Below are positions 2,510 to 32,373 of a stretch of 34,227 nucleotides of DNA, piece by piece. Where the stretch lies: NCBI GenBank assembly GCA_013425375.1, contig JACCLH010000083.1, positions 1 through 34,227 on the forward strand, written 5' to 3'. Both the position numbers and the translations under genes were made by a program. The stretch is from Microcaldota archaeon (GTDB lineage: Archaea; Micrarchaeota; Micrarchaeia; Anstonellales; Bilamarchaeaceae). The notes beneath the pieces were generated by a model, which saw only the letters and a program-made list of their open reading frames with translations, was not told the origin of the DNA and did not search any database. The first letter of the stretch is position 1. Each line of letters starts with the position of its first letter.

Positions 2510-2647
2510 GCTGGGGTCGCCTAGTCCGGTAGGGCGAAAGGTTGCTATCGCGCTTTTTAGTAAAAAGCGCCCAAAAACGGGCTGTAAAAAGCGTTGCGGA
2601 AACCTTTTGCGCGCAAGCGTCCGGGAGTTCAAATCTCCCCCCTAGCG
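2510..2647 (+). tRNA. trnS(gct): tRNA-Ser(GCT) with one intron
   Basis: Acceptor stem GCTGGGG (2510-2516) pairs with CCCTAGC (2640-2646), with one G-U. The discriminator is G (2647), as expected for serine. D-arm GCCT/GGGC, anticodon stem AAAGG (2537-2541)/CCTTT (2603-2607), anticodon GCT (2544-2546). The T-arm is GGGAG, loop TTCAAAT, CTCCC. A 15-nt variable region with a GCGC/GCGT stem makes it class II. A 54-nt intron (2548-2601) sits at the canonical 37/38 position. There is no CCA in the gene. The acceptor half repeats the start of the upstream tandem units. ogt follows with no TATA box of its own. Confidence 0.93.
2548..2601 (+). other. tRNA-Ser intron (position 37/38) with CTTTTTAGTAAAAAG hairpin
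   Basis: The intron contains the hairpin GCGCTTTTT-AGT-AAAAAGCGC followed by a second hairpin, GCCC-AAAAAC-GGGC. The same two elements recur in the T-loop intron of tRNA-Trp and, modified, in the D-loop intron of tRNA-Arg, so these introns look related. Boundaries are set by restoring a normal seven-base anticodon loop, TTGCTAA. Splicing would be by the archaeal tRNA endonuclease on a bulge-helix-bulge. Confidence 0.85.
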
Positions 2648-2650
2648 ATT

Positions 2651-6746: not shown

Positions 6747-7907
6747 TCAAATCAGCACTGCACTGTCCTTGCAAACAAACAGCAAAGCGAAGCGCTGCGG
6801 CAGCTCTTTCATCTCGTCCTTCTTGAACGGTCCCACGGTATCGTTCCCGAGCGTGAGCTGCGGCACGTCTTCAATAAACTTCACCTTCATTTCATTTCCG
6901 GGTTCGCTCGCGCTTCCGATTCCGCTCGGATTTTCGGTTTTTTGTTTTGGGTTTTGGTTTTTGTTTTGGTTCTCGAGCACGGCGTCCTTCCACGGATCAA
7001 ATGCCTTTATATCATCTATTATCTTCGCCACCAATCCTGTCTCGCCATGTATGGAATTAGGAACCCGTATCAGCTTGCTGAGGTCCTGCGTCACTCCGAC
7101 ATCGGTATTCACAGAATGGATGGGCAGACTGTCAGCGACAATCTTCAGCCTCTTCTTCAATTCATCGAATTTCAGGAATGTCCTGCTCCAGTTGCCCTCT
7201 TTTATCCCGCTGATGAAGAACTCCCTCTCTTTCTGGTCAGCGTATTTCCGCGAAAGCGCTGTGGGATTATCCTCCAGCAGCTTCAACACCCCGCGTGCCA
7301 TCCGTCCCCTGTATCCACCCTCGTCAGGCCTCGGTCCCAACAGTTTCTGCGGCTTACTGTCAGACAGCCCGAAGAAATCCAGGTAATCCAGCCCCTGGCC
7401 CATTATGTAATCCACAAGCTCCCTTCTCTCATCGCCGCCAAGGTCCAGGAACGCCTTGTCCCTCACATGGATGTGATAGCCGCGGTTCCCTGAGAAAACG
7501 ATTATGACGTCCTCTTTTCCCACTCCGAAGTCATTGATTATGAAATCATCAACCAGCCGCACAACCTCCTCTTTCACTGCCTCCAGCTTGGCATAGGCGC
7601 CATATCTGCCTTCGGAGTGGATGTCAAGGTCAAAGACCAGGTCTGCCCCTTTCCACTGCTTCTTCTGTATCGGTGTGGCTCCGGGGAACTCGTAATACGC
7701 CGTCGAGTGGGATACGAACATCGGCGTGTTGCTGCAAAGGTATCTCCTGAGCTCCGTGGCATTGGCGAAATTCAGATGCCTGGCGTCTATCTTCTTCACA
7801 TTGCCGATGCCGAACTCCCTCTGCTCCAGGCCAGGGATGGGGAAGTCCGCCTCGGCGTAGTACGAAGCGAATATCCTCTTCACCGCGAGCATGTCGTCCT
7901 GTCTCAT
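6747..7907 (-). CDS. priS: DNA primase small (catalytic) subunit
   Basis: PriS synthesises RNA/DNA primers for replication together with PriL. In 386 residues the catalytic aspartates sit in VFDLDIH (D93, D95). The nucleotide-binding motif SGNRGYHIHV is at 139-148, followed by a helical region and a third conserved part, VNTDVGVTQDLSKLIRVPNS, with the usual LIRxPxS signature. A Gln/Asn/Lys-rich stretch (about 313-340) then interrupts the C-terminal part. Its coding DNA is a T/G-rich low-complexity run on the plus strand around 6915-6980. The start codon overlaps the priL stop in an ATGA, so the two subunits are translationally coupled. Confidence 0.95.
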   Translation of the reverse strand: MRQDDMLAVKRIFASYYAEADFPIPGLEQREFGIGNVKKIDARHLNFANATELRRYLCSNTPMFVSHSTAYYEFPGATPIQKKQWKGADLVFDLDIHSEGRYGAYAKLEAVKEEVVRLVDDFIINDFGVGKEDVIIVFSGNRGYHIHVRDKAFLDLGGDERRELVDYIMGQGLDYLDFFGLSDSKPQKLLGPRPDEGGYRGRMARGVLKLLEDNPTALSRKYADQKEREFFISGIKEGNWSRTFLKFDELKKRLKIVADSLPIHSVNTDVGVTQDLSKLIRVPNSIHGETGLVAKIIDDIKAFDPWKDAVLENQNKNQNPKQKTENPSGIGSASEPGNEMKVKFIEDVPQLTLGNDTVGPFKKDEMKELPQRFALLFVCKDSAVLI

Positions 7908-23651: not shown

Positions 23652-23911
23652 GGGGTTATGGCGTAAAGCCGGATGTGGCACGCAACCTGGTAGCGCGGCA
23701 GAGGCTTATTTTCGCTTTCTCAAGACGAAAATCTGTTGCCGAAGCTCCAGATCTCTCTTCTGCATAAGCAGAAGAATTTGTAGCCGCGAAACCTGCATGC
23801 CGGAGTTCAACGCGCCTTTTTAGTAAAAAGGCGCGCCCAAAAACGGGTGTGCTAAAAGCGCCCAAAACGGGCCGTAAATAAAAATGCGCTGAACAGATCT
23901 CCGTGACCCCA
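23652..23911 (+). tRNA. trnW(cca): tRNA-Trp(CCA) that reads as interrupted by four introns
   Basis: Acceptor GGGGTTA (23652-23658) pairs with TGACCCC (23904-23910), discriminator A. A mature tRNA appears only after removing four segments. In the D-loop about 23666-23684 goes, giving GCGT/GCGC with CCTGGTA. In the anticodon stem 23702-23743 goes, giving a perfect GCAGG/CCTGC. At 37/38, 23751-23790 goes, giving loop CTCCAGA with anticodon CCA (23747-23749). In the T-loop 23811-23896 goes, giving CGGAG-TTCAAAT-CTCCG. Tryptophan identity rests on the anticodon, A73 and the D-loop. A TATA-like AATATAAACG lies at 23591-23600. The D-loop and anticodon-stem boundaries are the least certain. Confidence 0.82.
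23811..23896 (+). other. tRNA-Trp T-loop intron with CTTTTTAGTAAAAAG hairpin
   Basis: This 86-nt segment splits the T-loop between positions 58 and 59. Its first hairpin is CGCGCCTTTTT-AGT-AAAAAGGCGCG, followed by CCCAAAAACGGG and a second copy-like CCCAAAACGGG. These are the same building blocks as in the tRNA-Ser intron, although the host position is entirely different. The GC part of the first stem differs from that in tRNA-Ser but is still fully paired. Confidence 0.8.
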
Positions 23912-31976: not shown

Positions 31977-32054
31977 TACCGCTGTTTCCCTGCTGTTTTT
32001 TTAATCTTAGGAAGCTAGTTCTTTTTGTAAATCAAGTACGGGCTCGTAGCTCAG

Positions 32055-32137
32055 TCGCACCTTTTTAGGAAAAAGGTGCGTCCAAAAACCGGTAGTTAGT
32101 TTTTGGCGCGCTTCACAATAAAGCGGTGCGGAGAAGC
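32055..32137 (+). other. tRNA-Arg D-loop intron with CTTTTTAGGAAAAAG hairpin
   Basis: This 83-nt segment lies in the D-loop, a non-canonical intron site. It opens with the hairpin CGCACCTTTTT-AGG-AAAAAGGTGCG, then CCAAAAAC, which pairs with GTTTTTGG further on (32093-32106). The core CTTTTTAG(T/G)AAAAAG is shared with the tRNA-Ser and tRNA-Trp introns, while the outer GC pairs differ but still match. A common origin is likely. Confidence 0.82.
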
Positions 32138-32160
32138 TTGGATAGAGCGGCAGCCTTCTA

Positions 32161-32213
32161 AGCTTTGGGTAATAGCAAGCCAGTTTTTGGCCGCTTTTTC
32201 CCAAAAAGCGGAA
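32161..32213 (+). other. tRNA-Arg canonical intron with CCGCTTTTT/AAAAAGCGG hairpin
   Basis: This 53-nt segment at position 37/38 carries CCGCTTTTT-CCC-AAAAAGCGG, a hairpin of the same plan (GC clamp, T5/A5 core, three-base loop) but with loop CCC in place of AGT/AGG. A neighbouring GCCA/TGGC stem precedes it. It may be a more diverged member of the same intron family. Confidence 0.75.
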
Positions 32214-32373
32214 AGCTGTAGGTCAGGGGTTCAAATCCCCTCGGGCCCGTTTCTATTCACTGCGGCGAGGCCGGGCAGCGTGAAGCCCGGCACTTCCTAA
32301 GCCTTTTAAATTCCTTTTCATCATCTACTGGCTATCAAATCCTTGAAGCGAATGCTTTCTGTCAGGTGGTCTT

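Follow-up and report, generated by a model that had tools for sequence, protein, structure and literature searches.

At positions 23652-23911 of the window (the whole 34,227-nt stretch of DNA analysed here), a complete tRNA-Trp can be rebuilt only by removing four internal segments. This raises the question of whether the locus is a working gene with four introns or a decayed copy broken by insertions, and where such introns may have come from. We analysed the locus in the genome studied (G000), that of a tiny, uncultured member of the Bilamarchaeum group of Micrarchaeota, and across the 17 genomes of its genus (G000-G016), in which G014 is the sister species.

Structure and detection of the tRNA-Trp gene

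The initial annotation had proposed a 260-nt gene containing four segments of 19, 42, 40, and 86 nt, and these lengths and their coordinates proved exact. The locus encodes a tRNA-Trp(CCA) composed of five exons and four introns (Table 1). By standard tRNA numbering, these introns interrupt the D-loop at 15/16, the anticodon stem at 30/31, the canonical 37/38 position, and the T-loop at 58/59. The 37/38 junction is ambiguous by 1 nt because there is an A at both ends. The joined exons give a 73-nt molecule, GGGGTTATGGCGTAACCTGGTAGCGCGGCAGGCTCCAGACCTGCATGCCGGAGTTCAAATCTCCGTGACCCCA, which ARAGORN calls as tRNA-Trp(cca).

Table 1. Coordinates of the tRNA-Trp exons and introns and of two further interrupted tRNA genes in the window
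Feature	Position	Strand	Remarks
tRNA-Trp exon 1	23652..23666	+	positions 1-15; acceptor 5' strand GGGGTTA, D-stem 5' strand GCGT
tRNA-Trp intron 1 (19 nt, 15/16)	23667..23685	+	helix GCGT/ACGC; bulges AA^A, AA^C; missing in 11/17 orthologs
tRNA-Trp exon 2	23686..23701	+	positions 16-30
tRNA-Trp intron 2 (42 nt, 30/31)	23702..23743	+	helix CGGC/GCCG; bulges AG^A, AA^G; G000 and G016 only
tRNA-Trp exon 3	23744..23750	+	positions 31-37, anticodon CCA
tRNA-Trp intron 3 (40 nt, canonical 37/38)	23751..23790	+	in 17/17 orthologs
tRNA-Trp exon 4	23791..23810	+	positions 38-58
tRNA-Trp intron 4 (86 nt, 58/59)	23811..23896	+	member of dispersed palindromic family; partial internal duplication; helix GTTC/GAAC
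tRNA-Trp exon 5	23897..23911	+	positions 59-73; T-run directly after
tRNA-Ser(GCT)	2510..2648	+	one 54-nt intron of dispersed palindromic family, 2548-2601, site 37/38
tRNA-Arg(TCT)	32040..32250	+	two dispersed-family introns: D-loop 32057-32136 (sense), anticodon loop 32162-32214 (inverted)

Standard finders missed the gene, as the initial annotation had predicted. On the unspliced window, ARAGORN reported zero tRNAs, and Rfam reported one, which is a different gene, while tRNA-Trp was not detected. A purpose-built caller that allows introns in the D-loop, anticodon arm, and T-loop was run on both strands of the window and returned three candidates, all of which (3/3) are real tRNAs. In 100 dinucleotide-shuffled windows, the same caller gave 7 false candidates, one of which scored as high as the tRNA-Trp gene, so the reconstruction alone is only moderately strong and not decisive. 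It is this rate, about 0.07 false candidates per shuffled window, that would favor a chance reconstruction or an assembly artefact, in which four free deletions force a cloverleaf. Such an explanation is contradicted by the independent genome G014, in which the gene recurs with three of its four introns, and by 15 further congeners with an ortholog, the loci inspected having a downstream lipoprotein gene in common. We consider it extremely improbable; on comparative sequence grounds, the orthologs settle the reality of the gene.

The spliced tRNA-Trp was also compared with the whole assembly, since the initial annotation had called for a check for another tRNA-Trp(CCA). No second tRNA-Trp was found in this assembly, which is about 82% complete and lies in 89 contigs, so that an intronless copy could sit in sequence that the assembly lacks. 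For the D and anticodon arms, the 23652-23911 locus was the only match. A second match, at C35:16041-16063, corresponds to the 3' half of another tRNA, a proline-like one, and the matches on C79 and C69 are not tRNA-Trp either.

Interrupted tRNA-Trp orthologs in the genus

One interrupted tRNA-Trp ortholog was present in each of the 17 genomes, with 1 to 4 introns. We found one intron in G005, G006, G007, and G013; two in G001, G002, G008-G012, and G015; three in G003, G004, G014, and G016; and four in G000 only. The 37/38 site is used in all genomes, the T-loop site in 11, the D-loop site in 6 (G000 included), and the anticodon-stem site in 2. Sixteen orthologs were spliced by script, and 16/16 were called tRNA-Trp(cca); that of G006 was read by eye. 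All tRNA-Trp stems are intact in the 17 species. A second T-loop intron family, AGGCCTTTTTG...CCCTGGGAAAAA, was observed in both G016 and G004.

The mature tRNA-Trp of G000 and G014 are identical at 73/73 positions, and G014 is without precisely the 42-nt anticodon-stem insert, indicating that this intron is bounded exactly. The EndA tree, otherwise poorly resolved, places G014 as sister of G000 with support of 100/99.

Splice junctions

Base pairing at the junctions was assessed with cuts placed after the second nucleotide of each 3-nt bulge, by comparing the 4 exon bases before the 5' bulge with the 4 intron bases before the 3' bulge. In the tRNA-Trp orthologs, which together have 19 non-canonical introns, 62 of 76 central-helix pairs were formed, compared with 34.4 ± 4.4 of 76 in a control using the intron tetramer at random offsets (0/20,000 as high as 62). 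Introns 1, 2, and 4 of the G000 gene each formed 4/4 pairs (helices in Table 1), and the T-loop introns of G002 and G008-G011 paired poorly in the fixed register. For intron 3, the 3' GCCGCG is complementary to the exon CGCGGC and covaries to TACGGC/GCCGTA in several congeners, but no single textbook BHB could be drawn. Thus, introns 1, 2, and 4 have the central 4-bp helix and 3-nt bulges of archaeal BHB (EndA-type) introns, intron 3 lacks a textbook fit, and exact removal of all four leaves a standard tRNA.

These results bear on the possibility that the locus is a decayed copy, a tRNA-Trp gene broken by repeat insertions and out of use, the outcome that the initial annotation had named as its refutation. 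Decay would fit the unusual location of three of the four inserts and the repetitive nature of one. It does not explain why the sister species has the very same mature sequence, why that sequence is conserved with intact stems across 17 species, or why the inserts are confined to junctions that pair as BHB helices and whose joining gives back an exact tRNA. The locus is moreover the sole tRNA-Trp found in the 82%-complete assembly, a T-run directly follows it, and 17/17 genomes keep an interrupted ortholog. We therefore judge decay to be highly unlikely, and a four-intron tRNA-Trp at the sites given above is supported by these comparisons as the best reading.

Splicing enzymes

G000 encodes a 391-aa epsilon-type EndA with a full-length match to ARMAN-2 EndA (4fz2, 9w2k; E=3.3e-131). 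Alignment to 4fz2 showed that the catalytic Tyr, His, and Lys and the ASL specificity lysine are conserved (residues named in PMC6379350), and with its fused three-unit architecture of ~390 aa, the protein has the features of an epsilon-2 (ARMAN-type) enzyme. The relatives retrieved by this protein are Micrarchaeota. An RtcB ligase is also encoded (E=5.7e-165), and the genome thus has both the splicing endonuclease and the ligase expected where BHB introns occur. Enzymes of the epsilon-2 type accept relaxed motifs and cleave tRNAs at a variety of positions (PMC6379350, PMC12397907).

A second, short EndA-like protein (PF01974) is encoded at G000:C64 ~7000-7500 and in nearly all congeners. Its catalytic Tyr and His are replaced in an alignment to M. 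jannaschii EndA, and it is perhaps a non-catalytic structural partner beside the epsilon enzyme.

Taken together, we put the probability at roughly 0.9 that this is a functional and probably the only tRNA-Trp gene, whose four introns are cut by the epsilon-2 EndA and whose exons are joined by RtcB, and that its T-loop intron is a copy of the element described below. The 260-nt precursor would be transcribed as one piece, and the endonuclease would cut the four introns at BHB-like junctions; at the three non-canonical sites, each cut would follow the second nucleotide of the bulge. RtcB would then join the five exons into the 73-nt tRNA-Trp. We infer this splicing, including any order of the cuts, from the gene structure and the enzymes encoded.

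A dispersed palindromic element in tRNA introns

Unexpectedly, the T-loop intron of tRNA-Trp matches many places in the genus, a repeat relationship that the initial annotation had no means of seeing. These matches have in common a core in which a hairpin precedes C(A)n, typified by GCGCTTTTTAGTAAAAAGCGCCCAAAAAC. The variable T/A runs were misaligned by MAFFT, so a covariance model of the element was abandoned and we used a strict gapped pattern, CTTTTN{3,6}AAAAGN{3,8}CAAAA, with the same pattern reversed as control. It matched G000 at 24 places, whereas the reversed control matched once; the highest count was 86, in G012, and the genus as a whole had about 350. Within the taxonomic family, the element is enriched only in this genus and one other, g8 (~25 per genome).

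According to the caller and reading of the loci, 19 of the 24 copies in G000 are inside tRNA introns, about 12 in sense and 7 in inverted orientation. In a sample of other congeners, 22/39 matches were in called tRNAs and several more in tRNAs missed by the caller; in g8, 10/23 were in called tRNAs. The remaining 5/24 copies in G000 comprise a pair at C11, one in the rpL23-rpL2 spacer, one upstream of rpL3, and one ~90 nt downstream of tRNA-His, so the element is not purely an intron. Copies outside tRNAs are often found after a stop codon. Their placement between ribosomal protein genes or just past stop codons resembles that of a terminator or REP element. The pair at C11:22042-22103 is arranged head to head in a non-tRNA region, with closely similar pairs in G002 and G004; a search for a known RNA there gave no credible Rfam family, only a sub-threshold miRNA match, and E. 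coli genomes gave nothing.

The ends of the element (e.g. GCGCTTTTTA...TAAAAAGCGC) are complementary, as the terminal inverted repeats of a MITE-like transposable element would be, but such pairing also serves the BHB. Since the element would be removed as an intron within a BHB context, it would be tolerated in tRNA genes. Near-identical introns occur in different tRNA genes, the pattern expected of transposed introns. RNA-level reverse splicing is disfavored as the sole route of spread, as tRNAs also carry the inverted element. No clear target-site duplication was seen on comparing the filled with the empty tRNA-Ser(GCT) site.

Element introns in other tRNA genes

Two further tRNA genes in the window contain the element (Table 1). 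The tRNA-Arg(TCT) gene was missed by ARAGORN and Rfam, and after splicing ARAGORN calls it as tRNA-Arg(tct). The tRNA-Ser(GCT) gene is intronless, as a contiguous match, in at least 9 congeners including G014, whose gene is identical to the spliced G000 form at 84/85 nt and differs in the last base. At its 37/38 site, the element intron is present in G010, G003, and G012 and unrelated introns in G011 and G004. This variation among congeners indicates that the intron content of fixed sites turns over quickly, through gain, loss, and replacement. In G014, element copies were observed directly upstream and downstream of the intronless tRNA-Ser(GCT).

Two other genes appeared to be interrupted in unusual ways. 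In tRNA-Pro(GGG) of G000, G014, and G015, the T-arm is seemingly split by two introns flanking TTCAA, and in a tRNA-Cys-like gene, the acceptor 3' strand ACCCGGC seems to be parted from the T-arm by a further intron near 65/66.

The same data allow two views of the tRNA-Trp T-loop intron. With the gene structure unchanged, the intron itself may be old and its inside replaced by repeats of different families. Because species share the 58/59 site (used in 11/17 species, with unrelated contents) and differ in what it holds, the element may have entered an existing intron there; the close relatives G010 and G011, with an element and an unrelated intron, respectively, at the same tRNA-Ser(GCT) site, fit this as well. 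The intronless tRNA-Ser(GCT) of the sister and other congeners speaks against it, showing that gain or exact loss does occur, as does the presence of the element at several different sites, in many tRNAs, and in both orientations. We give this refilling of an old intron close to an even chance. In our preferred explanation, the T-loop intron is one copy of a short palindromic DNA element, dispersed in the genome, which has entered numerous tRNA genes in this lineage.

A broader proposal, which we offer tentatively and at somewhat below even odds, is that this short non-coding palindromic element propagates within genomes of the present Micrarchaeota lineage and itself generates tRNA introns, with tRNA-Trp as an extreme product. 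It would do so because its complementary ends fold into a junction that is removed by the permissive epsilon-2 endonuclease. We infer the mobility of the element from the distribution of its copies.

Significance and comparison with known systems

The origin of tRNA introns is an open question, and among the 17 related genomes the same site can hold an intron in one, be empty in another, and hold a replacement in a third. One intron family is common to several tRNAs and also occurs between genes, and the enzyme is of a type known for relaxed junctions. This combination makes intron gain testable with closely related species. Widely used tRNA finders overlook essential tRNA genes here, and the apparent completeness of these genomes is lowered as a result.

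Published summaries give three introns per archaeal tRNA as the maximum (PMC8450103, PMC4033280, PMC6379350), and judging by its sequence, the G000 tRNA-Trp would be one intron above the maximum found there. The view of the initial annotation that such a gene would be exceptional outside the Thermoproteales was somewhat too strong, since the listings in PMC4033280 include multi-intron tRNAs of ARMAN-1/2, and in some Asgard archaea they are common (PMC11291895). We found no report of a four-intron tRNA or a dispersed intron element for this genus, and the Bilamarchaeum paper (PMC8561730) makes no mention of introns.

The multi-intron tRNAs of Thermoproteales (Sugahara 2008; Fujishima 2010, as cited in PMC4090602 and PMC4033280) are alike in that a single gene can have several BHB introns, at canonical as well as non-canonical sites. 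There, the occurrence of similar introns in different tRNAs was taken as evidence of intron transposition (Fujishima 2010, as cited in PMC4090602), which the pattern in G000 resembles. In published summaries, Thermoproteales have at most three introns per tRNA, whereas G000, a member of Micrarchaeota with an epsilon-2 enzyme, has four in a single gene. Unlike the Thermoproteales case as described in these citing papers, the element of the present lineage occurs in both orientations and has copies outside tRNAs.

ARMAN-1/2 belong to the same phylum and have the same enzyme type, with broad specificity on relaxed BHB according to the accessible accounts (PMC4033280, PMC6379350, PMC12397907); in contrast to G000, a four-intron gene or a dispersed intron family was not found in these accounts. 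The Asgard Atabeyarchaeia and Freyarchaeia are likewise intron-rich, with introns reported in 92-95% of tRNA genes, more than half having several, often non-canonical, but they are of a different phylum, and four per gene may occur there as well (PMC11291895). Eukaryotic introners offer an analogy, not a class to which we assign the Micrarchaeota element: they are short repeats that turn into introns wherever copies settle in the many genes concerned (PMC9860276), but they are spliceosomal, lie in mRNA, and have no machinery in common with it. If the element does generate introns, it would be the archaeal tRNA counterpart of eukaryotic introners.
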